From Bacteroidales bacterium (GTDB lineage: Bacteria; Bacteroidota; Bacteroidia; Bacteroidales; P3): a stretch of 34,586 bases of DNA. Positions 1,785 to 16,439 of the stretch are shown here, piece by piece. The stretch covers positions 1 through 34,586 of the forward strand of contig JAFSPS010000054.1 of assembly GCA_017451385.1 (NCBI GenBank). Direction: 5' to 3'. The notes below the pieces were generated by a model. The model did no database searches, was not told where the DNA came from, and saw only the letters and a program-made list of their open reading frames with translations. The first letter of the stretch is position 1, and each line of letters starts with the position of its first letter. Both the position numbers and the translations under genes were made by a program.

Positions 1785-4700
1785 TTACAGGTTGTAGAAA
1801 TACTCCGAGACACGACGTTTGTAGAATGGCGTGAACGATGGGGGAGTGGTGCGGAAGAGTTCTTGATTGTTTTTCTTCAGCTGTTCAAACTTCTGTAAGT
1901 CTGCCGGTGACGGCTGATACTGCTCGGTAGCCTCGTTGCTCTTGCGGCGTTCCTCTTTCTCACGCTGCATCTCGGCACGCTCGTGCTCCAGCAGACGCGT
2001 CATTATCTGCTCCTGACGCTTGATAGTCTGCTGCGTGATGGTACGGTTGACGAGGTCGGTCTCCGTCTGTTCCATCTGTCGCATCATCTCGTCTATCTCT
2101 TTGGCGAGCTGTGCATTGCCTGCTGCCTGCTGCTTCATCTGCTGTCCGTACTGCTGCATCATACGGCGTATCATCTCCTGCTGTGCCGCCATCTTTGAGA
2201 ACTCCTCGCTCATCGTGTTGCCCGCTCCAATCTTATGACGGCCGCTGCCACGCTGCTGGTTCTTGCCCTGCTGGTCCAGCTGTTTCTTGAGCTGCTCCAG
2301 CTGCTTGTTCAGCTGTTCCTGCATCTGTTTGATACTCTTGGCGGAAGGCTTCTGACTATTATGGTTGCGGCTGTTGCCCTGCTGCTGCGACTTGCTGTCG
2401 CGCTTGCAGCTGCCCTGCATCTTCATGGAGGCGTTCTGCCGCATCTGGTTCTGCATGGCATCGAAACTCTCGGCAAGGAGCAGCGAGAGGTTGTTGATAG
2501 CCGTCATACAGTACTGCATAGGCTGCGAAGCACTGTAGTTGTATGAGTTGTTGTAGAACGACTGGTTGAAGCGCAGCAGGGTAGAGAGCGACCGCTGAAT
2601 GTTGCTGTTCACGTTGCCCACCTCGCGCGAGATAGCCGATGCTACTGCTACTTGGCGGCGTGCTATGGCGGAGAGGGTGTCCTCGATGTTGCGGAAATCG
2701 TCCTTTATCTTGTTCTGCGACGATATAATCTCCTGATAGCGCGGGTCTTGTATATAGGTCTTTGATGTCTGCGCTATGAGAGACTCCTGCTCAAAGGAGA
2801 GCTGGACAAGGCTTTTCAGCAACCGGCGCATCTGCTCGCTGTCCTCGGCGAGGTCCTCCTGCTCCATACGCATCTGCTCCGACGCCAGCTGTTCGGAGAG
2901 CTTCTGCATATCGTCGGCAGCCTCTTTCTGCTTCTTCGACGCCTGCTTGTTCTTTTTCTTCTGCATCTGCTGCTGCGCCTCCTGCTGGCTGTTCTCTATA
3001 TTCTTCTCAAGGTCCTTGTCGGGCTTGAAATCCAGACTCTTGTCTATCTCCTTATAGTCTTTCTCTATCTGCTCTATCTCTTTCTTCTGCTCTTGGAACT
3101 CCTTGTTCAGTGCCTCCTGACGCTGCTGCAGTTCCTCCTGTTTGCGTGCCTTGTCCTCTTTAGAGAGCTTCTGCTCATCGAGAGCGTCGGTCTCCTTGGC
3201 GAGCTCCTCCTGCTTGCGCGCCAGCTCGTCCATCTGCTTGACGGCGTTGTCCACCTTCTTCTCCATCTCGAGGCGTTTCAGGAGGTCTATGTTCTGGTCT
3301 ATCTGCTTCTCCAACTGCTCGTTGTCGAGCTTCAGCGTCTCCAGCTGCTCCTGCACCTTGTTCTTATCCACCTGTTGCAGCAGGCTGTCTATCTGCTGCA
3401 TCATGTCGCGCATCTCTTCGTTAAGCACCTCGTTCATCAGACGGTCCAGCTCGTCCTGCTTCTCGCGTATCTGGTCGTTCTGCTCACGATATTTGTCTTC
3501 CATGCGGTTGCTTTCCTGCATCTGTTGCTGCATCTTCTGCAACTCCTCGCGTATCTCCTTCTGCCGTTCTGCCAGCTCTTCCAGCTGCTTGCGCTCCTGC
3601 CATCCCAGCTCCTTCTTATCCACCAGACGGCGCATGAGGTCGTTTATCTCCGCCTGCTGCCGCTTCAGGTCGTCGATGGTCTGCGAGGCTTTCTCCCTCA
3701 CCTCGTCGTTGTTTTGCGCTAAGATTTGCGTCAATTCGCGCTCCGTGGGCACCTCTATCATGAACTGCTGCGATGTGGCTGATTTGGGGCCGTGGATGGC
3801 GTCATTGTCCCACACCTCGAAGTAGTACTGCAGACGGTCGCCGGCGGTGAGGCTAACCTCGGCAAGGTTGATAGCATAGCGGAACTCCTGCGCCACCTCG
3901 TGGCTGAGGGCTATGGGCTGGCTCTTTCGCTCATGGACGGATGTATCGGCTACATTGGTCTTCACGAATACCAACTCGAGGCGCGTGAAGCCGTAGTCGT
4001 CTTTGATGCGTCCTTGGAAGAAACGACGGTCGGGCAGGGCAGAATCCATCGTCTCCATCACCGCAATCATGGGCGCCACATCGGGGATGACTGAGACGGC
4101 GTAGCGCAGCGTATCGCTATTGGCGGCGTGACTATTAGCCACAAAGAACTCATAGCCAAACGACTCCATGGCACGCTGCTCCACCGCCACGCGTCCTGAT
4201 GCGTCCGGCTTCACGCCACGCACCTTGTCGCCAACGGCAAAGAAGAGCGTATCAACATCGCGTGTGAGAAACGTCCAGCGGACGGAAGTCCCCTGCGCCA
4301 CACTCAGGTCGCCCTGATTGGAGAGCGTGGCAGCCTGCTGACGCGTATAGGCAGGGTAGGCGAGAGCTACCTGAAAATCAATGATAGAAGGCTTCGGCAA
4401 CACCTGCAGCACATACTCCTGCGAGGTGACGCCGGCACCCGTGAGATGGAATGCTACCGACTGCTGCTGCTGACGGAAACGATAGGCGAAATGAGCCTTG
4501 TCCTGCTGCTGCATCTTGTAGCGACGACCGTCGATAAGCACGAAGGCCTCGGCAGGCAACGACTCGCCTTCTATGCTCACCTGCAGCAGGAAGTCCTCCT
4601 GCTGCGCCACCTGCAGGGTGTCGTTATCCACCACGAAGGCGAAAGGGGCGGGACGTTCGTAGGCGGTGTTGTAGTTGGCTATGCGCTTTGTGGGCTCTGT

Positions 4701-5231
4701 GATGAGACGCGGGGTGACGACAAAGGCTATAACGATGATAGCTAAGGGGATAAGCGCATATTTGGCATAGCGGCGGTTTTCGCGCAAGTTGACGGCATTC
4801 TTGAATGGGATAGGGGAGAGCTGTGCCGTCTTCTGCTCTATGCCGGCACGCAGTAGCTCGCTGTCGCTCTCGCCGCCCATCTGCTGCAGCTGCAGGAGGT
4901 TGAGCAGCTTATCCTTCACCTCAGGGAAATGGTCGCCAATAATGACGGCAGCCTGCTCATAACTGATGCGGCGGCCAAGACGGTACATCTTAGCCAACGG
5001 CACGACGACAAAGAAAAAGAGCACGAGCAGCGTGGCAATGACATAGGACCAGAAGAGTATGGCACGCACCACGGGGGGAAAGTAGCCAAAATACTCCAAA
5101 AGCAGCATCACGATAAGCAACGACAAAAGTAGCGCGACGGAATACAGCACCCCACGTATCAGTCTATTCTTGTAGTACTTACGAATAAACTCATCCAGCC
5201 TGTCTATTATCAAGTTGCGAGCCACGCCCAT
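1785..5231 (-). CDS. DUF4175-type large membrane-anchored coiled-coil protein, 1148 aa
   Basis: The N-terminus carries three probable membrane helices, at about residues 27-48, 56-80 and 155-174. A region of about 300 residues follows, rich in beta-type sequence (probably extracytoplasmic). From about residue 520 there are several hundred residues of Glu/Lys/Gln heptad-like coiled coil. A Gln/Asn/Met-rich stretch comes next (for example MRQNASMKMQGSCKRDSKSQ). It ends with the short tail TPFYKRRVSEYFYNL. Architecture and length match the DUF4175-annotated proteins of Bacteroidales, whose function is unknown; an envelope scaffold is my guess. The start at 5231 (MGVARNLIIDRLDEF) is preferred over 5342, because the extra 37 residues are atypical and a -7 box lies at 5245-5252. 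Confidence 0.8.
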   Translation of the reverse strand: MGVARNLIIDRLDEFIRKYYKNRLIRGVLYSVALLLSLLIVMLLLEYFGYFPPVVRAILFWSYVIATLLVLFFFVVVPLAKMYRLGRRISYEQAAVIIGDHFPEVKDKLLNLLQLQQMGGESDSELLRAGIEQKTAQLSPIPFKNAVNLRENRRYAKYALIPLAIIVIAFVVTPRLITEPTKRIANYNTAYERPAPFAFVVDNDTLQVAQQEDFLLQVSIEGESLPAEAFVLIDGRRYKMQQQDKAHFAYRFRQQQQSVAFHLTGAGVTSQEYVLQVLPKPSIIDFQVALAYPAYTRQQAATLSNQGDLSVAQGTSVRWTFLTRDVDTLFFAVGDKVRGVKPDASGRVAVEQRAMESFGYEFFVANSHAANSDTLRYAVSVIPDVAPMIAVMETMDSALPDRRFFQGRIKDDYGFTRLELVFVKTNVADTSVHERKSQPIALSHEVAQEFRYAINLAEVSLTAGDRLQYYFEVWDNDAIHGPKSATSQQFMIEVPTERELTQILAQNNDEVREKASQTIDDLKRQQAEINDLMRRLVDKKELGWQERKQLEELAERQKEIREELQKMQQQMQESNRMEDKYREQNDQIREKQDELDRLMNEVLNEEMRDMMQQIDSLLQQVDKNKVQEQLETLKLDNEQLEKQIDQNIDLLKRLEMEKKVDNAVKQMDELARKQEELAKETDALDEQKLSKEDKARKQEELQQRQEALNKEFQEQKKEIEQIEKDYKEIDKSLDFKPDKDLEKNIENSQQEAQQQMQKKKNKQASKKQKEAADDMQKLSEQLASEQMRMEQEDLAEDSEQMRRLLKSLVQLSFEQESLIAQTSKTYIQDPRYQEIISSQNKIKDDFRNIEDTLSAIARRQVAVASAISREVGNVNSNIQRSLSTLLRFNQSFYNNSYNYSASQPMQYCMTAINNLSLLLAESFDAMQNQMRQNASMKMQGSCKRDSKSQQQGNSRNHNSQKPSAKSIKQMQEQLNKQLEQLKKQLDQQGKNQQRGSGRHKIGAGNTMSEEFSKMAAQQEMIRRMMQQYGQQMKQQAAGNAQLAKEIDEMMRQMEQTETDLVNRTITQQTIKRQEQIMTRLLEHERAEMQREKEERRKSNEATEQYQPSPADLQKFEQLKKNNQELFRTTPPSFTPFYKRRVSEYFYNL

Positions 5232-5244
5232 TATTTTTAACTTA

Positions 5245-5252
5245 CAAAAATA
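5245..5252 (-). promoter_or_regulatory. Bacteroidetes -7 promoter box (TATTTTTG) for the DUF4175-type gene
   Basis: Minus-strand TATTTTTG matches TAnnTTTG and lies about 14 nt upstream of the chosen ATG, implying a very short leader. No convincing -33 box is seen. Confidence 0.4.
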
Positions 5253-5672
5253 CAAATAAAAGCGAAATAGCCGAAAGATTGTTTCGTCCGTGCATTGAAA
5301 CAGATACAGATATAGGCGTATTTTCGCACATGGAGAAAACAAATCGCACCCATCACGAAAACAGATGCTAAATGCTGATTAAACACCAGTTGTATCGATG
5401 TAGGTAGTTCCAATACACCGAAATAAACAGCAGCTGTTTAGTATTCAGTCCTTCACCCACATAAGGATTGCCGATATACCCGATTTATAAGCCCCTATCG
5501 TTTTACTTTATTTTTGAATACTACTAATATGACATCAATAAAGGAAAGAGAAAAACACCCCAGACTTCATACTCCTCTACGAAGCACACCTGAAAACCAA
5601 ACATAGTCAAAAAGAAGCTCATTGAAAAAACACTTTTACTACATAATAAGATAGATTATGCCAAAAAAAAAG
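5253..5672. other. Intergenic region between divergent transcription units, no gene seen
   Basis: About 420 nt of AT-rich DNA with frequent stops in all frames. It separates the minus-strand DUF4175 unit from the plus-strand defence island. I see no tRNA, repeat or coding remnant in it. Confidence 0.6.
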
Positions 5673-5680
5673 TACCTTTG
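5673..5680 (+). promoter_or_regulatory. -7 promoter box (TACCTTTG) for the defence island
   Basis: TACCTTTG is a perfect TAnnTTTG match on the coding strand, 152 nt upstream of the helicase ATG. The -33 element is not obvious. The implied leader of about 145 nt contains two possible hairpins. Confidence 0.5.
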
Positions 5681-5775
5681 CAAACAATTCTCCTTCTCTT
5701 GGAGGAGAGAAGAAATAGATATCATAGATAAAGACCACCAAATGCCATTTAGGGGGAAAAAATATAACAAAGCCT

Positions 5776-5809
5776 CCACGTAGTGTAACCTCTCAAGACA
5801 CTACGATGG
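5776..5809 (+). promoter_or_regulatory. Leader hairpin just upstream of the helicase start
   Basis: CGTAGTGT (5779-5786) and ACACTACG (5798-5805) form a perfect 8-bp inverted repeat. The flanking CCA/TGG extends it to 11 bp with one bulged A. It ends 22 nt before the ATG at 5832, so it could be an operator or an RNA element that affects translation. A weaker hairpin (TTCTCT...AGAGAA) lies upstream near 5693-5710. Confidence 0.45.
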
Positions 5810-5831
5810 GAGTTACTGTTGTTTGAAATAG

Positions 5832-8800
5832 ATGGAGTTAATTAATAACATAAGCAAGACTCTACGAGATGATATCGTGGCGCAGATGAAAGCCGGAAGC
5901 CGACTATCCATAGCGGCCTCCTGTTTCTCCATATATGCATTTCAGGAGTTGAAAGAAGCATTGACGGACATAAAGGAACTCCGTTTCATTTTCACATCAC
6001 CGACGTTTACAACTGAGAAGACTCCCAAACAGCAGCGAGAGTTCTACATCCCACGATTAGACCGTGAGCGTACGCTTTATGGCTCTGAGTTTGAAGTGAA
6101 GCTCCGCAACGAGCTGACACAAAGGGCCATTGCTCGTGAATGTGCTGAATGGATTAGAGAAAAGGCTTGTTTCAAGTCAAACAAGACCAATGAGCAGATG
6201 ATGGGGTTCATGAACCTTGATGACATCAGCTATTCTCCTATCAACGGTTTTACTACAGTTGACCTCGGTTGTGAAAAGGGCAACAATGCCTATACAATGA
6301 TTCAGAAGGCAGAAAATCCTTTTTCAAAAGCTTACATCGACCTTTTCAATCAGATATGGAATGATAGTGGCCGCCTGCAGGTGGTTACGGAAGAGGTTAT
6401 TGACAGTATCAGCAATGCCTACAAGGAGAATGCGCCAGAGTTTCTCTACTTCGTGGCACTCTACAATATTTTCAACGAGTTTTTGGAAGACATTAGCGAA
6501 GATGAGCTCCCTAAAGAAGCAACCGGCTTCAAAAACTCAGCAATATGGAATAAACTCTATAATTTTCAGCGTGATGCGGCCTTGGCTATTATAAATAAAT
6601 TGGAAAAATACAATGGTTGCATACTTGCAGATAGTGTTGGATTAGGAAAAACCTTCACGGCTCTGTCGGTTATCAAGTATTTCGAGAGTCGCAATAGAAC
6701 AGTCTTAGTGCTCTGTCCCAAGAAACTCTTTGAGAACTGGAATACCTATCGGCAAAACTACGTAAACAATCCATTGGCAAAAGACCGTCTGAATTACGAT
6801 ATACTATATCACACAGACCTCTCACGCGACTACGGACGGAGTAACGACCTTGACTTGGAACGTGTAAATTGGGGCAATTATGACCTTGTGGTTATTGATG
6901 AGAGCCACAACTTCCGTAATGGCGGTAAGGTAAGTACCGACGAGAATGGTGAGAATCCCCGTGAGAATCGCTATTTGCGTTTGATGAACAAGGTCATCCG
7001 TTCAGGCGTTAAGACCAAAGTGCTGATGCTTTCAGCAACACCCGTCAACAATCGTTTCAACGACTTAAAGAACCAGTTGCAATTAGCTTACGAAGGCGAA
7101 TCGGAAGCCTTTGACAAATTGCTACCTACCAATAGGGGTGTCGATGACATCTTCCGTCAGGCACAAGGCTCCTACAACATTTGGGCAGACCTTCCTCCAG
7201 AGGAACGTACTACGGAACGCCTTCTGCGGATGCTCGACTTTGATTTCTTCCGACTGCTCGATGCTGTTACTATTGCCCGAAGCCGCAAACACATTCAGCA
7301 GTACTATGATACTGCCGACATAGGCACGTTCCCCGAACGTTTGAAGCCAATTTCACGAAGTCCGCACCTGACTGACCTTGATACAGCCATCAACTACAAC
7401 GAGATATTCGAACAGCATCAGATGCTGCATCTTGCCATCTATGCGCCATCCGCCTTTATTCTTCCAAGCCAACTTTGGAAATATAAAGAAGAGGAAAGCA
7501 CAACGGGGCATCGGTTGAGTATTGAAGAGCGTGAACAAGGTATTCAGCGCTTGATGAACATACAGATGTTGAAACGATTGGAGTCATCGGTCAACTCATT
7601 CCGCCTGACGTTGACTCGCATCCGTGACTATATGCAGGAAACCCTTGATGCCATCGCGCGTTTTCAGAATGGGGAAAAACGTGTGTCGGTAGATGACTAT
7701 GAAAGTGTGGATGGCGACGAGGACGAGCAGGACTTCACCATTGGTAAGAAGAAAAACCGTATCCTCTTGGAGGATATGGACTTCATTTCATGGCAGAAGG
7801 AAATCAAGGATGACCTTGAAATCATTCGCCAGTTGTTGCAGATGCTTCAGAGTATCACGCCTGAGCATGACAGCAAACTGCAACAGCTCATCACAGACCT
7901 GCAAGATAAGTTTGCCCATCCTATCAATGGCAATAATAAGAAAGTCCTTATCTTCACGGCTTTCTCAGATACGGCGCTGTACCTCTACGATTGTCTGGCA
8001 GACCCAATCAAGAAACAATATGGCTTGAATGTGGCTTTGGTTACCGGTGATGTGGAGGCACGTAGCACACTCAAACTGAAGGAGAAACTGGACTTCAACA
8101 AAGTTCTGACGCTCTTCTCTCCTCTATCCAAGGAGAGAGAAACCGTCTATCCACATTTGAAAGAAGAAATAGATGTGCTGATAGCTACCGACTGTATCAG
8201 CGAAGGACAGAACTTGCAGGACTGCGACTATCTGCTGAACTACGACATCCATTGGAACCCCGTGCGCATCATCCAGCGTTTCGGACGTATAGACCGTATT
8301 GGTTCTAAGAATACTAAGATACAGCTGGTGAACTACTGGCCTGACATGACACTCGATGAATACATCAATCTGAAAGGGCGCGTAGAGAGCCGCATGAAAG
8401 TAACGGTGATGACCGCCACAGGCGACGACAACCCTCTCTCGCCAGAAGAAAAAGATGATTTAGAATACAGGCGCAAGCAACTGGAACGACTGAAAGAGGA
8501 TGTCGTGGATTTAGAGGAAATGAACACTGGCGTAAGCATCATGGACTTGGGATTGAACGAATTTCGACTTGACTTGCTGGAATACATCAACAGTAATCAT
8601 GATGTGGAACATACCCCCTTTGGGCTTCATGCCGTTGTACATGCCACAGACCAGGCACCAGCCGGAACAGTCTTCGTTTTGAAGAACAGAACTGCTGGCA
8701 TAAACATCGACCACAAGAACCAGTTGCATCCGTTCTACATGGTCTATATCAAGGACGATGGAGAAGTGCTTGTTGACCATCTGCACCCGAAAGACTTGCT

Positions 8801-9059
8801 CGACAAGATGCGCTTGCTCTGCAAACCCATGACGAAGCCTGATGTCAAACTATGCAGTGCCTTCAACAAAGAGACACGCGACGGTCTGCGCATGGGCAAA
8901 TACTCAGAGCTACTTGGCAAGGCGATAGAGTCCATTGTCACCAAGAAGGAAGAATCAGATATAGACAGCTTCCTTGATGGCTTCATGGGAGAACTTTTTG
9001 AGGAGCGTATCACGGGGCTTGACGATTTTGAACTAATATGTTTCCTCGTCGTCATATAG
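5832..9059 (+). CDS. SNF2/DEAD-type helicase with PLD-like N-terminal domain
   Basis: This is a 1075-residue superfamily 2 DNA helicase/translocase. Walker A is ADSVGLGKT at about residues 266-274, Walker B is VVIDESHN with D356-H359, motif III-like LSATPVNNR follows, and motif VI is QRFGRIDRIG at about 815-824. Residues 1-250 resemble the PLD-like domain that precedes this helicase type (LSIAASCFSIYAFQELKEAL, then FIFTSPTF). No HxK catalytic pair is visible, so it may be non-nucleolytic. This helicase type is often found next to DUF4391 and type III mod/res genes, as here, suggesting a role in phage-DNA sensing or processing. It is the first gene of the island. Its TAG stop (9057-9059) is also the first three bases of the inverted repeat around the next gene, so the extreme C-terminus could have been altered by that insertion. 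Confidence 0.88.
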   Translation: MELINNISKTLRDDIVAQMKAGSRLSIAASCFSIYAFQELKEALTDIKELRFIFTSPTFTTEKTPKQQREFYIPRLDRERTLYGSEFEVKLRNELTQRAIARECAEWIREKACFKSNKTNEQMMGFMNLDDISYSPINGFTTVDLGCEKGNNAYTMIQKAENPFSKAYIDLFNQIWNDSGRLQVVTEEVIDSISNAYKENAPEFLYFVALYNIFNEFLEDISEDELPKEATGFKNSAIWNKLYNFQRDAALAIINKLEKYNGCILADSVGLGKTFTALSVIKYFESRNRTVLVLCPKKLFENWNTYRQNYVNNPLAKDRLNYDILYHTDLSRDYGRSNDLDLERVNWGNYDLVVIDESHNFRNGGKVSTDENGENPRENRYLRLMNKVIRSGVKTKVLMLSATPVNNRFNDLKNQLQLAYEGESEAFDKLLPTNRGVDDIFRQAQGSYNIWADLPPEERTTERLLRMLDFDFFRLLDAVTIARSRKHIQQYYDTADIGTFPERLKPISRSPHLTDLDTAINYNEIFEQHQMLHLAIYAPSAFILPSQLWKYKEEESTTGHRLSIEEREQGIQRLMNIQMLKRLESSVNSFRLTLTRIRDYMQETLDAIARFQNGEKRVSVDDYESVDGDEDEQDFTIGKKKNRILLEDMDFISWQKEIKDDLEIIRQLLQMLQSITPEHDSKLQQLITDLQDKFAHPINGNNKKVLIFTAFSDTALYLYDCLADPIKKQYGLNVALVTGDVEARSTLKLKEKLDFNKVLTLFSPLSKERETVYPHLKEEIDVLIATDCISEGQNLQDCDYLLNYDIHWNPVRIIQRFGRIDRIGSKNTKIQLVNYWPDMTLDEYINLKGRVESRMKVTVMTATGDDNPLSPEEKDDLEYRRKQLERLKEDVVDLEEMNTGVSIMDLGLNEFRLDLLEYINSNHDVEHTPFGLHAVVHATDQAPAGTVFVLKNRTAGINIDHKNQLHPFYMVYIKDDGEVLVDHLHPKDLLDKMRLLCKPMTKPDVKLCSAFNKETRDGLRMGKYSELLGKAIESIVTKKEESDIDSFLDGFMGELFEERITGLDDFELICFLVVI

Positions 9060-9080
9060 ACTTTAGGTATTAGATTTTAG
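9057..9080. repeat. Left arm of inverted repeat enclosing the four-helix-bundle gene
   Basis: The arm contains TAGACTTTAG at 9057-9066 and TAGATTTTAG at 9071-9080; a further TAGACTTTAG overlaps at 9078-9087. Against the reverse complement of 9441-9464 it matches at 21 of 24 positions. Two of the three differences become G-U pairs in RNA, leaving one true mismatch. Confidence 0.85.
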
Positions 9081-9092
9081 ACTTTAGAAAAT

Positions 9093-9458
9093 ATGAAATC
9101 AAGCGATTATAGACAGTTAAAGGTGTGGCAGAAAGCCATGGACTTGACTACGGAAATATATAAGTTGGTCAGATTGTTGCCCAAGGATGAGACATACGCC
9201 TTATCTGATCAAATGAGAAGGGCGGTTGTATCAATTCCTTCCAACATAGCAGAAGGACAAGGCCGAAACTCTGATAAAGAGTTTATTAACTTCTTGTCAA
9301 TAGCAAGAGGCTCCTTATGGGAGTTGGAAACTCAATTGGAAATCTGTGTTCGACTTGGTTATATCGATTCGAGTCTAACGCCTAATGTCTATAACCTGAC
9401 AACTGAAGTCAGCAAGATGCTTAATGCGCTTGCCAACTCGCTAAAGTCTAACGCCTAA
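9093..9458 (+). CDS. Four-helix-bundle protein (23S rRNA intervening-sequence protein family)
   Basis: The 121-residue protein has the family hallmarks: an N-terminal YRQLKVWQKAMDLTTEIYKL, a central SDQMRRAVVSIPSNIAEG, FLSIARGSLWELETQLEI, and a final helix with KMLNALANSLK. These are the S23/IVP four-helix proteins (TIGR02436-like). They were first noticed inside intervening sequences of 23S rRNA, and their biochemical role is unknown. The gene is enclosed by a 24-nt inverted repeat (9057-9080 / 9441-9464), as rRNA intervening sequences are. The right arm overlaps the last codons, and an 18/19 copy of its GTCTAACGCCTAAAGTCTA word occurs inside the gene at 9373-9391. It sits between helicase and DUF4391 with 33-nt and 16-nt gaps and looks like a small inserted unit rather than a core partner. 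Confidence 0.9.
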   Translation: MKSSDYRQLKVWQKAMDLTTEIYKLVRLLPKDETYALSDQMRRAVVSIPSNIAEGQGRNSDKEFINFLSIARGSLWELETQLEICVRLGYIDSSLTPNVYNLTTEVSKMLNALANSLKSNA

Positions 9459-9464
9459 AGTCTA
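9441..9464. repeat. Right arm of inverted repeat enclosing the four-helix-bundle gene
   Basis: It contains two copies of CTAAAGTCTA (9441-9450 and 9455-9464), the reverse complement of the left-arm word. The stop codon of the four-helix-bundle gene (9456-9458) lies within it, and the DUF4391 start codon follows 10 nt later. Confidence 0.85.
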
Positions 9465-9474
9465 AAGACTTAAA

Positions 9475-10077
9475 ATGTTCCAGTTACCGCCTGCTACCGC
9501 CATCAATAAGCCGCTCTACAAGAAGGCAGTCTTTGAGAAGTTCCATCTCAAAGCGACAGAGCGTGACCGTTTCGACGCAGACATTAGCCGCATGGCGTTG
9601 GTGGCAAGGGTATCAACGGCAACAGTCCCTGCTTTGACGAAAGGGAAAGAAATAGAAGGGTTCTATGTACTGCAAGTGGCATTGAAGCGAAAGGACTATG
9701 ACTCGAAGAATATCCTCATGCTCCAAAAGCTGATACCACAGCGCATAGTCTTTGCCCTGCAATTCGACAAGGAAACACAGTTCTGCATCTTTCATACCCG
9801 ACTACAGCAATCGGCATGGATGCCGACTGACGAAGCCACCATCACTTTACAAGGCTTGTCGCTTGATGATGTCTGGAACAGCATCGTTGCAACCATTGGA
9901 GGCTTGGATGCCCAGGCAGAAGAAACCATTGAGGAGCAGATTATCCATCGTGAACAACAAGAAAAGTTGCTTCGCCAGATAGAATCATTAGAAAAGCAAT
10001 GCCGTACAGAGAAGCAGACTCGTAACAAGTACGAACTTCATCAACAGATAATAAAACTTAAAGAGCAATTAGAATGA
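9475..10077 (+). CDS. DUF4391 domain protein
   Basis: The 200-residue protein has the N-terminus [20 protein letters not shown] and [19 protein letters not shown], a central [41 protein letters not shown], and a C-terminal coiled coil ([20 protein letters not shown] then [16 protein letters not shown]). This pattern is that of DUF4391, a family of unknown biochemical function seen next to SNF2-type helicases and type III restriction-modification genes. It is presumably a partner of the upstream helicase, with the coiled coil for assembly. Its stop overlaps the Fic start (ATGA), so the two are probably translationally coupled. Confidence 0.8.
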
Positions 10078-10622
10078 AAAAGATAGATGAACAAAGTTTG
10101 GAAAACGCTATAAGACTATATGAGTCTGGTGATATCAGCAAGATAGAGGTGGGAACCACTAAGGGTCTACAGGCGATACATCATTACCTGTTTGATGGGC
10201 TTTATGACTTTGCAGGAAAGATACGTGAGAAGAATATTGCCAAAGGCGGTTTCCGCTTTGCAAATAGTATGTATCTCGTTCCTGCGCTTGAGGCTGTAGA
10301 GAAAATGCCAGAGAGTACATTAGAGGAAATCATATCCAAATACGTGGAAATGAATGTTGCTCATCCCTTTTTGGAGGGTAATGGACGTGCGACACGCATC
10401 TGGCTGGACCAGATATTGAATAAGAATTTGGGTAAGGTGGTTGATTGGCAGTATATTGACAAGGACGATTATCTCTCTGCCATGGAGCGAAGCCCCATTA
10501 ACGACTTGGAAATCCGCACACTCTTAGGTGCTCACCTGACAGATAGGGTTGATGACTGCGAAGTCCTCTTCAAAGGAGTTGAGCAGTCATACTATTATGA
10601 AGGATATAAGAAAGGAGAGTGA
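10074..10622 (+). CDS. fic: Class III Fic protein (AMPylating enzyme with C-terminal autoinhibitory helix)
   Basis: Fic enzymes transfer AMP from ATP to target hydroxyls. The catalytic motif [12 protein letters not shown] is intact with His97, Asn103 and Arg105. The short length (182 residues), the N-terminal [20 protein letters not shown] and the C-terminal SYYYEG (Ser172, Glu176) fit class III Fic proteins such as NmFic from Neisseria. In those, a C-terminal (S/T)xxxE(G/N) helix blocks the ATP site until autoAMPylation and oligomer changes release it. NmFic is reported to modify DNA gyrase subunit B; by similarity this one could hit the same target. No separate FicA/VbhA-type antitoxin gene is seen. 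The ATGA overlap with DUF4391 ties it to the island's expression. Confidence 0.92.
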
Positions 10623-10626
10623 GCAA

Positions 10627-11373
10627 ATGAACACGTTTAAAGGTATGTTTCTCTTAAAGAAAGAGAAAAATGAAACCGTTTGTGCGATTAAGGAATTGTG
10701 CGATAGCTATAGTGGCAGGCAAGCAAATAATATAAAAGAAGAGAGAAGTTTATATCGTGACTATTTTCATGATGTCAATGGATGTTTGAAAGAATGCTTC
10801 TATGAGACTTTTGGAAGCATCCGGCGTTGCCTTGCTTTTGTCTATGGAGCACAACACACTGATGATATTTGTTATCAAAGAGTCGCTCTTTACAGAGTAT
10901 TTTGTTTTTTTATGGAATTATATAGGATAGTTCCAGATGCCATATCCATCAACGATTTTCCATCATGCAAGGACTTACTTCAGTTATCAGAAGAGGACTT
11001 GGTTTCCGCGGCAAATGATCTCGTCGGCAACAAAATTGTAAAAGGAAAAGTTAGTTTCGCATTGTTAGGGAAAGGGATGGATAACCTAACTAAAATTGGT
11101 GATGTTATGGCATTTTATGACAACATGGCAAATGAAATGAAAGCGGATATAAATGAGAAAGGACTCTCAGATATTTCCTTGGAGTCTTTCTTGCTTAAGA
11201 AGGCGAAAGCAGAATATGCTTATTGTTTCCTTGCTATGTTAAAAGTGGGGCATGGTATTGGCAAAGAAGCAAAAAGTATTCAAGAAGCTCGGAAAGACAT
11301 AGAACAATTTGAAGACTTTTGCCAGCAAAATAGTATTGGCAATTTGACAATATCTAATAATACACAATTATAA
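10627..11373 (+). CDS. Hypothetical protein, 248 aa, mostly helical
   Basis: I do not recognise this family. The start at 10627 is supported by a good AAGGAG site 10-12 nt upstream and by lying 4 nt after the fic stop; the longer frame from 10549 overlaps fic and is unlikely. The protein looks soluble and alpha-helical. It has a cluster of Cys residues in the first half (VCAIKELC, CLKECFYETF, RRCLAF), an aromatic-rich segment VALYRVFCFFMELYRIVPD, and a Lys/Glu-rich C-terminal third. No signal peptide, membrane helix or catalytic motif is visible. Its codon use is more AT-rich than that of the helicase. Position suggests co-transcription with fic. Confidence 0.75.
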   Translation: MNTFKGMFLLKKEKNETVCAIKELCDSYSGRQANNIKEERSLYRDYFHDVNGCLKECFYETFGSIRRCLAFVYGAQHTDDICYQRVALYRVFCFFMELYRIVPDAISINDFPSCKDLLQLSEEDLVSAANDLVGNKIVKGKVSFALLGKGMDNLTKIGDVMAFYDNMANEMKADINEKGLSDISLESFLLKKAKAEYAYCFLAMLKVGHGIGKEAKSIQEARKDIEQFEDFCQQNSIGNLTISNNTQL

Positions 11374-11473
11374 GTGTTGTACTGAAAAGCTGACACGAAA
11401 GAAACATGGGCTGTGCCAATAGTTATTATATAATACAAATAGTCAATATATAGAATCTATAACAGAAAAGAAT

Positions 11474-13231
11474 ATGGCAAGATTAACGATAGAACAATTA
11501 AAGAAACTCAAAGAATCAGAAGATAAAGTTGAGTTTAAAAGGGCAGAGCAGGGAAACTTTGCCTACGATGGCGGCAGCCGTATAAAGCCCAACGAACGTC
11601 GCAAATGCATTCTCGGCTATGTGACTGCTTTCTGCAATGAGGGAGGTGGCTATCTTGTCATTGGAATGGAGGACGCTTATCCCCATAAAGTTGTAGGAAC
11701 CAAACAATGTGAGGGACAGTTGGGAGTATTGGAAAGTGATATTTACCGAGATGTTCAGATTCGTCCCACCGTTTATGAATTGTACGAAGATGAAGCAAAC
11801 AAGAAGGGGCGAGTTTTAGTGATAGATATTCCTTCACGGCCTGTTGGAAAACTTTTTAGGTTTGAAGATGTGCCCTTGATGCGTATTGGCGAAGAACTAA
11901 AACCTATGTCTGATGAAATGATGTTTCAGATTCTTCAAGAACATGAGCCAGATTTCTCATCAGATATATGTGAGGGCGTAACTTTTGACGATTTAGATGT
12001 AGAGGCTATTCGCATATTGAAACAGAAATATGCAACAAAACAGAAGAATCCAGATTTCCTGACTTTACCAGATGAGCAAGTCCTTAGTGATTTGCAATTA
12101 ATCAAAGAAAATAAAGTTACGAATGCTGCGCTTATATTGGTTGGAAAGCAGGAAGTCTTGAATGCTAAACTACCACAGGCTGCCGTATTCTTGGAGTACA
12201 GAAAATCCGAATCTTTAGTTCCATATACAAATCGCCAAGAATATCGTCAACCATTTTATAAGATGATAGACCTCTTATGGCATGATATAGACTTGAGAAA
12301 TGACAAAATAGATGTAAAGGAGAATTCTTACATCTTTAATATACCTTATTTTAACGAAGAGGTCATCCGTGAGGCCATTAATAATGCCATTACACACAGA
12401 GACTATAGAAGAAATAGCGAAACCGTTATCATGCAGTACCCCCAGAAGATGATCATTATAAACATTGGCGGTTTTCCTCTTGGGGTTACTGTTGATAATT
12501 TACTTAGAGTTCCAAGTACTCCGAGAAATAGACTGCTTGCAGATGTACTTGCAAAAACAGGTATAGTGGAGCGTTCAGGACAAGGGGTTGACAAAATCAT
12601 CAAGAATACCTTGGCAGAAGGAAAGGAACAACCAGATTATTCACATAGCGATCCGTTTAGGGTGGAACTTCAAATCTCGGCAGTCATCAAAGATAAGGCA
12701 TTTGCAGTATTTTTGGACTCTGAGCAAAGAGACCTGCCTGAAGAAGAAAGGCTTTCCGTCTTTGAGGTTGTATCTTTGAATGATATCAGACAGGGCCATT
12801 CAGAACTTGTTTCAAAGGAAATGATAAAACAGCTATTGAGCCGTAACCTTATAGAGAAACGTGGTAGGACGAGGGGAACTTACTATATTTTATCCAAAAA
12901 CTATTATGAGTTATGTGGTGAAGAAGGTGAGTATTCTCATAAAGACGATTGGGGGATTAACCAAGTAATATCTATCATTATGCCTCACTTGGCAAAGTTT
13001 GAGAAGGCAAAGATGAAAGATTTTGTGAAATTGTTGGATGGACACCTTACAAGAAGACAGGTCCGTCTAATGATAGACCATTTAGTAGATAAAGATTATC
13101 TTGCTAAAGAAGGCGAAGGTGCTGCTACAGTTTATAAAATTGGAGATGCTTTTAAACAAAGTTCTGCTATGTTAGCAAGAGCTTTTGATTTAGGTATTGA
13201 AGAAATGAAAAAACGAGGAGAAATCAAATGA
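11474..13231 (+). CDS. AlbA_2 (Schlafen-type) / HATPase_c_4 ATP-binding protein
   Basis: The 585-residue protein begins with an AlbA_2/Schlafen-like domain (residues 1-150: EDKVEFKRAEQ, then ILGYVTAFCNEGGGYLVIGMED). A middle ATPase part of the RecG-C/HATPase_c_4 kind follows (FNEEVIREAINNAITHRDYR near residue 300, then GGFPLGV and VERSGQGVDKIIK). The C-terminal third has winged-helix-like segments (VSKEMIKQLLSRNLIEKRGR and RRQVRLMIDHLVDKDYLAKE). Such proteins are often annotated as ATP-dependent transcriptional regulators and are frequent in defence islands; some Schlafen-type domains are nucleases. It starts 100 nt after the previous gene. Its stop is the first base of a 32-nt direct repeat. 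A regulatory or effector role in the island is inference. Confidence 0.82.
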   Translation: MARLTIEQLKKLKESEDKVEFKRAEQGNFAYDGGSRIKPNERRKCILGYVTAFCNEGGGYLVIGMEDAYPHKVVGTKQCEGQLGVLESDIYRDVQIRPTVYELYEDEANKKGRVLVIDIPSRPVGKLFRFEDVPLMRIGEELKPMSDEMMFQILQEHEPDFSSDICEGVTFDDLDVEAIRILKQKYATKQKNPDFLTLPDEQVLSDLQLIKENKVTNAALILVGKQEVLNAKLPQAAVFLEYRKSESLVPYTNRQEYRQPFYKMIDLLWHDIDLRNDKIDVKENSYIFNIPYFNEEVIREAINNAITHRDYRRNSETVIMQYPQKMIIINIGGFPLGVTVDNLLRVPSTPRNRLLADVLAKTGIVERSGQGVDKIIKNTLAEGKEQPDYSHSDPFRVELQISAVIKDKAFAVFLDSEQRDLPEEERLSVFEVVSLNDIRQGHSELVSKEMIKQLLSRNLIEKRGRTRGTYYILSKNYYELCGEEGEYSHKDDWGINQVISIIMPHLAKFEKAKMKDFVKLLDGHLTRRQVRLMIDHLVDKDYLAKEGEGAATVYKIGDAFKQSSAMLARAFDLGIEEMKKRGEIK

Positions 13232-13350
13232 TTAAAAACGTCCAAAATGCGTCCAATATAATGTAAATAATCGTTAATTTTAGATACGTTAGAAATGCAA
13301 TATACTTATTTTTAGTAAATTAAAAACGTCCAAAATACGTCCAAAATAAT
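13231..13350. repeat. Pair of about 32-nt direct repeats (88-bp period) with a repeated-element core between them
   Basis: ATTAAAAACGTCCAAAATGC begins the copy at 13231-13262, and ATTAAAAACGTCCAAAATAC begins the copy at 13319-13350; the two differ at only two or three bases. Each contains two CGTCCAA words. The spacer holds TACGTTAGAAATGCAATATA (13285-13304), which resembles the element at 23021-23055. The first copy starts at the last base of the AlbA_2 stop codon. Confidence 0.75.
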
Positions 13351-13563
13351 TAATAAATGAACAAAACAGACATGGCAGAAATGTAAGAAGTATGAATGAC
13401 ATCAACAGATTTTAAAGTTAAAGGAGGTACTACAATGAATATAACCGTATGTTGTATTGATTGGGAGGCTGTTAGTGCAATATCTAATAGCTTCTCACGA
13501 CCCACAGGATAAATCAATTCAGAAAAGTCTCCAAAAAATTGCAAATAATAAAAGAAAATAACA
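13232..13563. other. Spacer between the AlbA_2 gene and mod
   Basis: 332 nt holding the direct-repeat pair and a possible 25-codon leader ORF. No TAnnTTTG box is obvious. It is the largest gap in the island and divides it into an upstream helicase-to-AlbA_2 block and a downstream mod-rhuM-res block. Confidence 0.6.
13435..13512 (+). CDS. Possible 25-aa leader peptide with strong RBS
   Basis: ATG at 13435 is preceded by AAAGGAGGTACTACA, a near-perfect Shine-Dalgarno sequence that is unusual for this window. It encodes 25 residues starting MNITVCCIDWEAV and ends at TAA 13510-13512, 51 nt before mod. The peptide resembles nothing I know. It could be a leader that tunes mod expression, a gene remnant, or chance. 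Confidence 0.3.
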   Translation: MNITVCCIDWEAVSAISNSFSRPTG

Positions 13564-15426
13564 ATGGATAAATTGAATATGCAGACCACGAACATCGTGG
13601 ATAAGAATATAAAGCGGATTGGGGAATTGTTTCCCAACTGCCTCACGGAACGGCTGAATGCAGAGGGGAAGCCGGAACTGGCAATCGATTTTGACCAACT
13701 CAGACAGGAATTGTCGAAAGATATTGTGGACGGTCCGGAGGAACGGTATCAGTTCACTTGGCCTGATAAGCGCAATGCCATCCGACTTGCCAATGCCCCT
13801 ACGACCGACACACTGCGCCCTTGTCGTGAGGAGAGCGTGGACTTCGACACGACACAAAATTTATATATCGAGGGCGACAACTTGCAAGTGCTGAAACTGC
13901 TGCGTGAGAACTATCTGGGCAAAGTGAAGATGATTTATATCGACCCGCCATACAACACGGGCAATGATTTTGTATATAACGACGACTTCTCGCAGACGGC
14001 AGGTGATTATATGCATAACAGTGGACAGACGGACGAAGAGGGTAATCGCCTCGTAGCCAACACAGAGAGCAACGGCCGCTTCCATACCGATTGGCTTAAC
14101 ATGATTTATCCTCGCCTCAAAGTGGCAAAAGATTTGTTGAGTGAAGATGGCGTGATTTTTATCTCAATTGATGATAATGAACAAGATAATCTCAAACGAG
14201 TGTGTAATGAAGTGCTTGGTGCGCACAATTTCATAGCACAATTGGTTTGGGAGCGGGCATATTCGCCTAAAAATGACGCACGCTTCATTTCCATCAGTCA
14301 CGATTATATTTTGATGTTTGCTAAAAACATCAACCAGTTTGTTATAGGCAGACTTGATAGAACGGAAGAAGCAAATGCACGATATAATAATCCAGACAAC
14401 GATCCACGTGGCGTGTGGAAGCCGAGTGACATGTCTGTAAAAACATACAACGCTGAAAGCGATTACCCCATCACGACCCCTTCGGGGCGTGTCGTCGAGC
14501 CTCCAGCAGGACGCTGCTGGAGGCTCTCGCGGAACGCGTTCCGCGAGAGACTCAAAGATAATCGTATATGGTTCGGACCCGATGGAAATAGTGTCCCCTG
14601 TATTAAGCGTTTTTTGTCAGAATTGAAGTTTGAAGGAATGGCTCCTACCTCTATCTTATTTTACAAAGATGTTGGCCATAGTCAAGAAGGAGCAAAAGAA
14701 GTTGTGGCATTGTTAGATAAAGGCGTGTTTGATGGACCAAAACCTGTTCGCTTGTTGAAACGCTTACTATATTTGGCTAATTTGAAAAATGATTCTCTTA
14801 TTCTTGATTTCTTCTCTGGTTCAGCATCTACTGCACACGCTCTAATGTCTTTTAATGCTGAGAAGGATAAACATTGTAAGTTTATTCTAGTTCAATTGCC
14901 TGAGGAAACAGATGACAAAGCTAATCAAGCTGGTTATAAAAATATTTGTGAGATAGGCAAAGAACGCATCCGTCGTGCAGGAAAAAAGATAAAAGAGAAG
15001 TCGCCGCTGACCACGCAAAATCTTGATACTGGCTTTCGTGTGTTGAAACTTGATTCCTCGAATATGGAGGATGTCTATTATACTCCAGCAGACTTTAACG
15101 ATAGAAATTTGTTTGAGGAGAATATCAAGTCCGACCGCACGGATGAAGACTTGCTCTTCCAATCAATGATAGAACTCGGCATTGAACTGTCTGCCAAGAT
15201 TGAGAAGCGTAGCATTGCCGGCAAGACAGTTTATAACGTGTCTGATGGTTATCTCTTGGCTTGCTTCGACGAGGATGTGAACGAGACAACTATCACAGAG
15301 ATTGCCAAGCTAAAACCATCCTACTTCATTATGCGCGACAGCAGTCTTGCCAACGATAACGTGGCCGACAATTTCGAGCAGATTTTTGAGCATTATAGCA
15401 AAGATACGGTTCGTAAAATATTGTAA
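13564..15426 (+). CDS. mod: Type III restriction-modification DNA methyltransferase (Mod), N6-adenine type
   Basis: The 620-residue beta-class amino-methyltransferase has motif IV DPPYNTG (Asp127-Tyr130) before the AdoMet-binding motif I DFFSGSAST (about residues 415-423). The motif order and length are those of type III Mod subunits, which both modify and recognise the asymmetric site for the Mod-Res complex. The upstream block YIEGDNLQVLKLLRENYLGK is standard for Mods. The region between motifs IV and I carries target recognition; it includes the common PSGRVVEPP...DNRIWFG block. That block is encoded here by three consecutive GC-rich hairpins (14472-14549), quite unlike the surrounding DNA. 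rhuM starts 5 nt after the stop and res follows. Confidence 0.95.
   Translation: MDKLNMQTTNIVDKNIKRIGELFPNCLTERLNAEGKPELAIDFDQLRQELSKDIVDGPEERYQFTWPDKRNAIRLANAPTTDTLRPCREESVDFDTTQNLYIEGDNLQVLKLLRENYLGKVKMIYIDPPYNTGNDFVYNDDFSQTAGDYMHNSGQTDEEGNRLVANTESNGRFHTDWLNMIYPRLKVAKDLLSEDGVIFISIDDNEQDNLKRVCNEVLGAHNFIAQLVWERAYSPKNDARFISISHDYILMFAKNINQFVIGRLDRTEEANARYNNPDNDPRGVWKPSDMSVKTYNAESDYPITTPSGRVVEPPAGRCWRLSRNAFRERLKDNRIWFGPDGNSVPCIKRFLSELKFEGMAPTSILFYKDVGHSQEGAKEVVALLDKGVFDGPKPVRLLKRLLYLANLKNDSLILDFFSGSASTAHALMSFNAEKDKHCKFILVQLPEETDDKANQAGYKNICEIGKERIRRAGKKIKEKSPLTTQNLDTGFRVLKLDSSNMEDVYYTPADFNDRNLFEENIKSDRTDEDLLFQSMIELGIELSAKIEKRSIAGKTVYNVSDGYLLACFDEDVNETTITEIAKLKPSYFIMRDSSLANDNVADNFEQIFEHYSKDTVRKIL
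14472..14549. repeat. Three consecutive GC-rich hairpins inside mod
   Basis: Hairpin 1: CACGACCCC (14472-14480) with GGGGCGTG (14484-14491), one bulged A. Hairpin 2: GAGCCTCCAGCAG (14497-14509) with CTGCTGGAGGCTC (14514-14526), a perfect 13-bp stem and 4-nt loop. Hairpin 3: 14524-14549, a perfect 26-bp palindrome centred on ACGCGT. Hairpins 2 and 3 share three bases. The reading frame stays open and encodes a conserved Mod segment. Confidence 0.95.
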
Positions 15427-15431
15427 GGCAG

Positions 15432-16439
15432 ATGGAAGACAATAATAAGATACTCATATATACAGACAGCAGCGGACTCACGAAGATTGATGTGAGAATG
15501 ACAGACGATACGCTATGGCTTACACAGGCTCAGATGTGCGAACTATATCAGACGAGTAAATCGAATGTCAGTGAACACATCAAGCACATCTTTGAAGAAG
15601 GCGAACTACAGGAAGGCGCAGTTGTTCGGAAATTCCGAACAACTGCCGCAGACGGGAAGTCATACCTGACTACCTTCTACAATCTTGACATGATTATTGC
15701 TCTCGGCTATCGGGTGCGCTCCATCATTGCGACACGCTTCAGACAGTGGGCAACGGAACGTCTGAAAGAATACATTGTCAAAGGATTTACACTTGACGAT
15801 GAACGACTGAAAAAACTTGGCGGTGGTGGCTATTGGAAGGAACTTCTCGAACGTATCCGAGACATCCGTGCCACAGAGAAGGTGCTCTATCGGCAAGTGC
15901 TTGAAATCTACGCCACGAGTATTGACTATGATCCACGAGCATCTATTTCTCAGGAGTTTTTCAAGAAGGTACAGAACAAAATTCATTATGCCATCCATGG
16001 ACGCACGGCAGCAGAACTGATAGTGGAGCGAGCCGATGCAGAGAAAGACTTCATGGGACTTCTTACCTTCAAAGGGAATCAGCCAACATTGGTTGAAGCC
16101 AAGACCGCCAAGAACTATCTTGATGCCAAGGAACTCCGGGCAATGGGACAACTGGTATCGGGATACCTTGACTTTGCTGAACGACAGGCAGAGCGCGAGC
16201 AACCGATGACCATGAACGACTGGGCCAACTATCTGGACCGCATTCTCACAATGTCGGGAGAGCAACTGTTAGAGGGTGCTGGCTCTGTTTCTCATACAGA
16301 AGCAATGGAACATGCGACAAACGAATATCGCAAATACAAGCAACGCACCATCAGTGATGTGGAACGTGACTATCTGGATGCTATAAAGCGATTGGGCGAT
16401 ATGGGAAAGAAAGATAATTCAAAGGAGGCAGACGCATGA
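15432..16439 (+). CDS. rhuM: RhuM-family protein
   Basis: The 335-residue protein matches the Virulence_RhuM family (COG3943). It opens with an HTH-like region (LWLTQAQMCELYQTSKSNVS, then EHIKHIFEEGEL). The hallmark segments YNLDMIIALGYRVRS and FRQWATERLKEYIVKGF follow, and then a C-terminal domain with AEKDFMGLLTF and AKNYLDAKEL resembling Fic/DOC-associated RhuM proteins. RhuM was named in a Salmonella pathogenicity island. Its molecular function is unknown, and it is common in type I and III restriction loci. It lies 5 nt after mod and overlaps the res start by 4 nt (ATGA), so the three genes form one translationally coupled unit. Confidence 0.9.
   Translation: MEDNNKILIYTDSSGLTKIDVRMTDDTLWLTQAQMCELYQTSKSNVSEHIKHIFEEGELQEGAVVRKFRTTAADGKSYLTTFYNLDMIIALGYRVRSIIATRFRQWATERLKEYIVKGFTLDDERLKKLGGGGYWKELLERIRDIRATEKVLYRQVLEIYATSIDYDPRASISQEFFKKVQNKIHYAIHGRTAAELIVERADAEKDFMGLLTFKGNQPTLVEAKTAKNYLDAKELRAMGQLVSGYLDFAERQAEREQPMTMNDWANYLDRILTMSGEQLLEGAGSVSHTEAMEHATNEYRKYKQRTISDVERDYLDAIKRLGDMGKKDNSKEADA

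Follow-up and report, generated by a model that had tools for sequence, protein, structure and literature searches.

Organization of the locus

The window analyzed in this work is the whole stretch of 34,586 nucleotides (nt) of contig JAFSPS010000054.1 from a Bacteroidales bacterium, and the subject is a unit that lies in it between an SNF2-like helicase gene and a DUF4391 gene. The unit consists of a gene for a four-helix-bundle (4HB) protein enclosed by two inverted arrays of short tandem repeats, and it is likely to be a mobile element (Table 1). An earlier note on this DNA had described the gene within an inverted repeat, and both arms were recovered exactly as given there, the left arm reading TAGACTTTAGGTATTAGATTTTAG and the right arm CTAAAGTCTAACGCCTAAAGTCTA. 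The three positions of the 24 that are not complementary are T-G, A-C, and T-G, so 23 can pair as RNA. The arm score was matched by none of 20,000 dinucleotide shuffles of both 55-nt flanks. The left arm begins with the stop codon of the helicase gene (TAG, 9057-9059), and 10 nt separate the end of the right arm from the start codon of the DUF4391 gene (ATG, 9475).

The enclosed open reading frame (ORF) encodes a 4HB protein by its matches to the PF05635 and TIGR02436 profiles, as had been proposed. The right arm does not lie outside this gene, and the stop codon of the gene is a TAA inside the right array. Both arms are tandem 7-nt arrays, with the pattern TAGnnnT on the left and CTAAnnn on the right. 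The direct repeat D1 connects 9372-9402 with 9445-9475 (81%).

Table 1. Features of the 4HB unit and its two neighbors in the window
Feature	Position	Strand	Description
Upstream SNF2-like helicase gene	5832..9059	+	ORF; Helicase_C/SNF2 match; TAG stop opens the left array
Left array	9057..9087	+	Four units TAGACTT TAGGTAT TAGATTT TAGACTT, then TAG; inverted repeats I1 and I2; best lag 7
Left arm, 24 nt	9057..9080	+	21/24 complementary to 9441-9464
4HB gene, 121 amino acids	9093..9458	+	TIGR02436 / PF05635 23S_rRNA_IVP; weaker match to Avd
Array-like repeat in the 3' part of the 4HB gene	9373..9393	+	GTCTAAC GCCTAAT GTCTATA; direct repeat D1
Right arm	9441..9464	+	Pairs with the left arm; contains the final five sense codons and the stop codon of the 4HB gene
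Right array	9441..9468	+	CTAAAGT CTAACGC CTAAAGT CTAAAGA; best lag 7
Downstream DUF4391 gene	9475..10077	+	PF14335, E 2.7e-31

The profile scores of the 4HB protein are above the curated cut-offs (TIGR02436, 142.5 bits against 24, E 5.3e-42; PF05635, 145.3 bits against 33.8, E 8.7e-43). Its solved homologues are XCC0516 (2gsc, E 8.9e-26) and 2rld (E 5.8e-10), with five chains per crystal, and the Xanthomonas protein is cited as a toroidal homopentamer (PMC4990558). In comparisons of the window gene with five relatives, the nonsynonymous proportion of differences (pN) was 0.10-0.12 and the synonymous proportion (pS) was 0.76-0.79, a saturated value. Because pN lies far under the saturated pS, the 4HB protein is conserved, and in the pairs compared, purifying selection on it is strong.

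Arrays and matching arms at other 4HB loci

The protein was used to collect relatives from 190 same-family genomes, of which 88 had a match at E <= 1e-10, and 30 loci were kept (genomes are numbered with G and loci with L). Further relatives came from named genome contigs (the best 80 of 561) and from viral contigs (2). Duplicates (L037, L099), a weak match (L002), and pattern matches (L003-L007) were left out of the counts.

A search for other 4HB genes with arms had been suggested in the earlier note, and such arms are common: the arm score of a locus with itself was at least 16 at 141 of 187 loci. The mean score was 21.4 for own arm pairs and 9.4 for pairs combined across loci, of which only 3.8% reached 16, and 1 of 147 pairs did so in the far-flank control. 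The period of the window arrays was also found at other loci. In the 120 nt on either side of the gene, the lag-7 identity was 0.41 (before) and 0.40 (after), compared with 0.245 and 0.242 further out (106 loci), and the best lag was 7 in 85 of 106 left flanks and in 85 of 106 right flanks, compared with 37 of 406 control windows.

The array units vary from locus to locus, and the arms covary, which was another point that the earlier note had left to be checked. When own arms were compared with the ten cross pairs formed with the five most similar proteins, the own score exceeded all ten at 43 of 108 loci and just their median at 51 of 108. Furthermore, at the 14 loci with a GTGAnnn unit in the serC-serA junction, the own score was above the row median in 14/14 and was the row best in 6/14. 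Since own arms outscore the arms of relatives, both arms of a locus change together. The similarity of units also correlated with the similarity of proteins (Mantel r 0.28, 0 of 500 permutations; 126 loci without their 87 same-junction pairs, host kinship not controlled).

The same organization was observed beyond the Bacteroidota. In contigs titled as Firmicutes (41 loci), a label taken from the titles of bins and possibly wrong for some, the arm score was at least 16 at 31 of 40 loci, and the best lag was 7 at 30 and 29 of 38. A 4HB match was present in 28 plasmid records, and the 12 of 28 that were analyzed are all cyanobacterial; here, the best lag was 7 on both sides at 11 loci, and the own score was the row best at 10. 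Units of 7 to 11 nt were found in further 4HB loci.

Some loci depart from the usual form. Contig 7 of G100 (4500-17000, L158) has seven 4HB matches in about 11 kb, the last one of 86 amino acids, and its units are 6, 7, or 8 nt long. A 4HB subfamily (L350, L380, L382, L385, and others) has longer units, about 9 to 11 nt (for example GGGAGTGAAA), and its inner ends are GACAA and TTGTC. GACAA before and TTGTC after the gene were also considered as a general end of the element; this was rejected, with 20/125 upstream and 28/125 in the control, and the motif is clear in one subfamily.

Occupied and empty junctions

The earlier note regarded the unit as a discrete insert that fits between genes and proposed a search for empty sites, and relatives do contain them. 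Nine DUF4391 loci of the family were examined, three of which were not comparable; two of the others are filled (G000, G049) and four are empty (G015, G093, G095, G167). The distance from the helicase stop to the DUF4391 ATG is 415 nt in G000 and 462 nt in G049, and 5-9 nt in the empty junctions. Three empty-junction helicases end with FELICFLVIK and a TGA stop 5 nt before DUF4391, and the fourth ends with FELICFLVVK and a TAG stop 9 nt before it. The helicase C-termini are ...VIK or ...VVK without the element and ...VVI or ...VIRH with it, and these altered ends in filled junctions arise because the array supplies the stop. Among 4HB loci, the upstream ORF ended no more than 30 nt from the left-arm edge in 115 of 126 cases (median -2), and its stop lay within the left arm in 45 of 126.

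The window's close 4HB relatives L038, L040, and L041 (83-85% amino acid identity) occupy other junctions. L038 lies after an hsdS-like gene and before RhuM, with a unit cosine of 0.12 to the window, and L040 and L041 lie between truA and an EamA transporter gene, with unit cosines of 0.70 and 0.58. Further close relatives are found at yet other places, and several of the close relatives have units similar to those of the window. At the serC-serA junction, 112 loci were read, 110 of them show serC, and 19 have the 4HB gene. This sample is not random, as 8 of the 30 best serA matches are filled and 11 further loci were chosen for a known 4HB gene beside serA; the name of the junction rests on NCBIfam at one locus (L032). 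Both occupied and empty sites in relatives and the presence at unrelated sites, as expected of a mobile element, were thus observed. The tie to defence genes, which the earlier note had seen in the position of the unit, was not borne out by the other sites, which include serC-serA, truA and EamA, a ParB-like and a nucleotidyltransferase-like gene downstream, and cas genes.

In the cyanobacterial plasmids L408, L411, and L417, the 4HB element lies between cas6 and cas4 (two) or between cas10 and a Cmr3-family gene (one). The window itself contains a defence-like cluster at 9475-19495, comprising DUF4391, Fic (PDC-S04 model), an AlbA/HATPase protein, and a type III methyltransferase, and continuing with RhuM (PDC-S05 model) and a type III restriction enzyme. 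Carriage by phages or plasmids was considered and rejected, with 2 loci in viral contigs, 1 phage record, and the 28 plasmid records.

Gene-less hairpins

Hairpins of the same repeats were also found without the gene. Exact GGTTATn arrays are present in 37 of the 190 genomes, all of a single genus, with up to 77 matches, and within that genus they accompany the presence of 4HB (30/37 versus 46/83, p 0.008). A 4HB gene between GGTTAT arrays is open in G043, G108, and G121, short in G082, and interrupted in G091. In G091, the pattern GGTTATnGGTTATnGGTTA (one mismatch) occurs 69 times and a control pattern 8 times, often as facing pairs 40-75 nt apart. Nine distinct G091 hairpins of 77-183 nt were obtained among the 30 loci kept, and most share a core by eye; gene-less hairpins were read in G043 and G042 as well. 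By eye, L269 has the same inner ends as L173, which bears the 4HB gene in the same genome, but no gene between them; the 4HB reading frame of L173 is broken by a stop. The G091 core TGCGYARG was also looked for downstream of other 4HB genes and was rejected as a common feature (1/121, control 1).

Decayed and gene-less forms were also seen at the serC-serA junction, where L226 is a hairpin of the local unit without a gene and, in L202, the arms persist around a deleted gene. Gene-less hairpins of a longer unit occur there in L134, L142, L150, L189, L214, and L215; by eye, a CTGCGYARC-like core is common to several of them and to the GGTTAT hairpins. The unit of the window itself, searched as the 10-mer CTAAAGTCTA, has one further match in G000 (L003), which is not surrounded by an array.

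Proposed nature of the element

It is likely that the unit is a mobile element, with a 4HB gene enclosed by two inverted arrays whose short tandem units are usually 7 nt long. REPINs (repetitive extragenic palindromic doublets forming hairpins) are thought to ride on RAYT (REP-associated tyrosine) transposases. By analogy, the 4HB unit is probably a REPIN-like element in which a non-catalytic 4HB protein binds its own arrays. We hypothesize that the ring-shaped 4HB protein would bind the arrays of the element that encodes it, either as RNA or as a single-stranded DNA hairpin. It would also assist a trans-acting enzyme in copying or inserting the hairpin. The gene-less hairpins may ride on the same machinery, as REPINs on RAYT transposases. 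Slippage would change the number of units, and template switching between the arms, or transposition, would keep the arms complementary.

Several results weigh against this interpretation. No catalytic family was matched by the 4HB protein in NCBIfam, Pfam, and PADLOC. The filled helicase junctions, for which only distant empty sites are available, showed altered last codons instead of a target-site duplication. Arms with a score of at least 16 are missing at 46 of the 187 loci, and the own score is not above the nearest-relative median at 14 of the 108. The signal was weaker in a family-profile sample (148 Bacteroidota genomes, 111 with the family; best 30 matches used, window included), in which own pairs scored 14.2 and cross pairs 8.9, and the own score was the row best in 15 of 30. 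Unit lengths of 6, 7, 8, and 10-11 nt occur within the single genome G100, and GGTTAT-rich genomes such as G022, G047, G074, and G105 have no 4HB gene of that unit among the copies fetched. Stops in all three frames were found in 80 of 141 left arms (23 expected from shuffled arms) and 65 of 141 right arms (11 expected), but they are equally common on the opposite strand (61 left and 83 right of 141), so such stops mark no sense.

Possible pairing and processing as RNA

The earlier note suggested that the element could be excised from mRNA. According to this explanation, the arms pair in the operon mRNA, RNase III cuts the stem and so releases the 4HB piece, leaving the flanking genes on separate mRNAs, with selection acting on the RNA stem. 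Intervening sequences (IVSs) of rRNA share the protein family and the complementary ends, and in the Coxiella IVS, the reported RNase III cut lies where the first heptamer begins (PMC4990558). Moreover, the whole window unit folds strongly as RNA (z -7.3), but so does its coding part without the arms (z -4.55). The orientation is biased as well: among 163 loci, the element runs the same way as neighbors that share one direction at 66 and the opposite way at 3 (61 ambiguous, 18 without data, 15 other; single-junction loci not collapsed).

On the other hand, the view that the differences between the arms preserve RNA pairing was not upheld, since the mismatches comprise 146 G-U and 208 A-C (101 of 110 loci), and the RNA-wobble signature of the window, with its two G-U pairs, was rejected as a general property. 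A general RNA fold of the 4HB coding region was likewise rejected, being not above that of flanks or antisense at 48 loci, among which the window is an outlier. In the cyanobacterial plasmids, the annotation gives 8 elements in the same orientation, 3 opposite, and 1 convergent, so that 3 of the 11 with same-way neighbors run opposite. Because no preference for G-U was found and the coding fold is ordinary, excision from mRNA was not adopted, and we consider it unlikely, although not negligibly so. The sense bias fits a non-strict need for host transcription, either for expression of the protein or for an RNA intermediate. The earlier note was thus confirmed in its observation and supported in part in its interpretation.

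In L128, L132, L161, L166, and other serC-serA copies, a second local hairpin is seen by eye between the left array and the start codon. This hairpin, made of an array, a short loop, and an inverted array, could compete with the far arm.

Candidate moving enzymes and other explanations

A rather improbable explanation is that the system is a REPIN-RAYT pair in disguise, in which Y1 (RAYT-type) transposases move both the hairpins and the 4HB elements, and the 4HB protein is a passenger or a helper. Y1_Tnp was found in 81 of the 190 genomes. It co-occurs with 4HB, with an odds ratio (OR) of 5.98 over the family and 1.99 within the genus (p 0.086), and with GGTTAT arrays, with an OR of 4.95 over the family and 2.51 within the genus (p 0.044). 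One Y1 gene (L387) lies about 0.5 kb from a GGTTAT hairpin cluster. However, within 160 nt, no period brought any of 20 Y1 loci to the 0.75 lag mark; inverted flanks (score of at least 16) were found in 17 of them, by eye GC-rich palindromes of another kind. At E <= 1e-6, no Y1 match was obtained in two array-bearing genomes, G014 (10 array matches) and G082 (58 array matches). The Y1 transposase was therefore rejected as the partner, given an association that is family-wide but weak within the genus and the different palindromes. At one Y1 gene of the window genome (L389, contig 46, about 107188-107532), long direct arrays of ATCTTA type are seen by eye on both sides, beyond the palindromes.

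Avd has a four-helix fold. A retro-element acting in trans, in which an Avd-related 4HB protein passes the hairpin RNA to a host reverse transcriptase (RT), would agree with the sense orientation bias and with the detectable similarity to Avd proteins of diversity-generating retroelements. This similarity is weak, with an E value of 3.1e-7 and 30.6 of 80 bits for DivGenRetAVD, and an E value of 1.8e-4 and 22.4 of 40 bits for bAvd, so the 4HB protein is under both curated cut-offs and is not assigned to Avd. No RT was found among the eight window proteins scanned, and 4HB is not associated with RT genes in the 190 genomes (OR 0.99 over the family; 0.48, p 0.077, within the genus), for which RT was rejected as a partner. 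This route appears improbable.

We likewise give little credence to a host regulatory cassette, in which the 4HB protein binds the adjacent array, regulates the operon, and is spread by ordinary recombination. The purifying selection, the position in operons, the orientation bias, and the local hairpin seen by eye before the start codon in several serC-serA copies would agree with such a role, whereas the scattered presence at unrelated genes, the gene-less copies in many places, and the decayed copies kept between arms (L202, L173) would not. Ordinary microsatellites, formed by slippage in intergenic gaps where the 4HB gene tends to lie, are very unlikely: heptamers are a common bacterial repeat class (PMC4679880, PMC4692102), but slippage yields direct and not inverted arrays, the units track the protein across junctions, the far flanks have no arrays, and this explanation is already contradicted by the own-arm match, which far exceeds that with the arms of other loci, and by the correlation of unit with protein.

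Relation to known repeats and significance

The REPIN-like element proposed here resembles the REPIN/RAYT systems in that a protein gene lies between palindromic repeats and gene-less hairpins are dispersed between genes; for the GGTTATn unit of the relatives, these palindromes share the repeat of the gene-bearing master. It differs from them because the 4HB protein (P0001) matched no transposase family at E <= 0.001 in NCBIfam, Pfam, and PADLOC, and so lacks the Y1 (HUH) match of a RAYT, and because its arms are 7-nt tandem arrays, in contrast to the GC-rich palindromes around Y1 genes. Like a miniature inverted-repeat transposable element as usually defined, L269 is short and, by eye, keeps the inner ends of the gene-bearing L173 while lacking its gene, but the gene-bearing copy has no transposase match and no target duplication was seen.

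Short tandemly repeated repetitive sequences of cyanobacteria are heptanucleotide repeats. Tandem 7-nt units between genes, which characterize these repeats, are present in the window and at 11 of the 12 plasmid loci. Other repeats of this kind have been described. TAACTGA repeats were reported in Beggiatoaceae, cyanobacteria, and Bacteroidetes, with stops in all frames, and the author offers, as one possibility, that the repeat-binding protein is the mobile element itself (PMC4679880). GGGAATC of Xanthomonas forms 70 convergent pairs in Xcc and 75 in Xac, and GGGGA(T/C)T is a heptanucleotide repeat of Nostoc (PMC4692102). In contrast to the arrays described here, no 4HB partner is named for them, and the main texts of PMC4679880 and PMC4692102 contain neither "four helix" nor "S23".

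The likeness to rRNA IVSs that the earlier note pointed out holds. IVSs with an S23p ORF (Leptospira, Coxiella, and others) share with the window unit the protein family, the sporadic distribution, and the complementary ends enclosing the ORF, although the right end of the unit overlaps the last codons of this ORF. In the Coxiella IVS, tandem GACAGAT heptamers are reported directly before the S23p ORF (PMC4990558). The IVSs lie in rRNA helices, whereas the window unit lies between the helicase and DUF4391 ORFs, with arrays on both sides and no Rfam match at the gathering score in 5000-13000. The Coxiella ORF was also reported to be decaying (PMC4990558), in contrast to the conserved 4HB protein of this work.

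Beyond what the earlier note had described, the present analysis found the units of 7 nt, copies without the gene, and an occurrence in several phyla. In the open-access literature, with most subscription journals outside the search, no paper was found that ties 4HB genes to heptamer arrays outside rRNA. Within this literature, the connection of heptamers, IVSs, and 4HB genes is new, as are the elements at operon junctions, their empty sites, and the gene-less copies. As a more tentative proposal, which we regard as a real possibility but somewhat less than an even chance, these would form a separate class of bacterial mobile elements, seen here in records of Bacteroidota and cyanobacteria and in Firmicutes-titled ones. 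In this class, a pair of inverted 7-nt arrays would move together with a 4HB protein that reads them, forms a ring, and has no known enzymatic motifs. The heptanucleotide repeats of cyanobacteria, Beggiatoaceae, and Xanthomonas would then be gene-less copies, and the rRNA IVSs would be members that landed in rRNA.

In that case, the large family whose members carry the annotation "four helix bundle protein" or "S23 ribosomal protein" would gain a role. The heptanucleotide repeats of bacteria, the origin of which has been unclear for decades, would gain an origin and would be joined with the 4HB family to the rRNA IVSs. It would become testable how a protein without a known catalytic site could help a hairpin to move, and by what means complementarity is kept between two distant arrays as their sequence changes. 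Moreover, since the elements lie in gene rows such as serC-serA and the cas genes, they affect the reading and annotation of many genomes.

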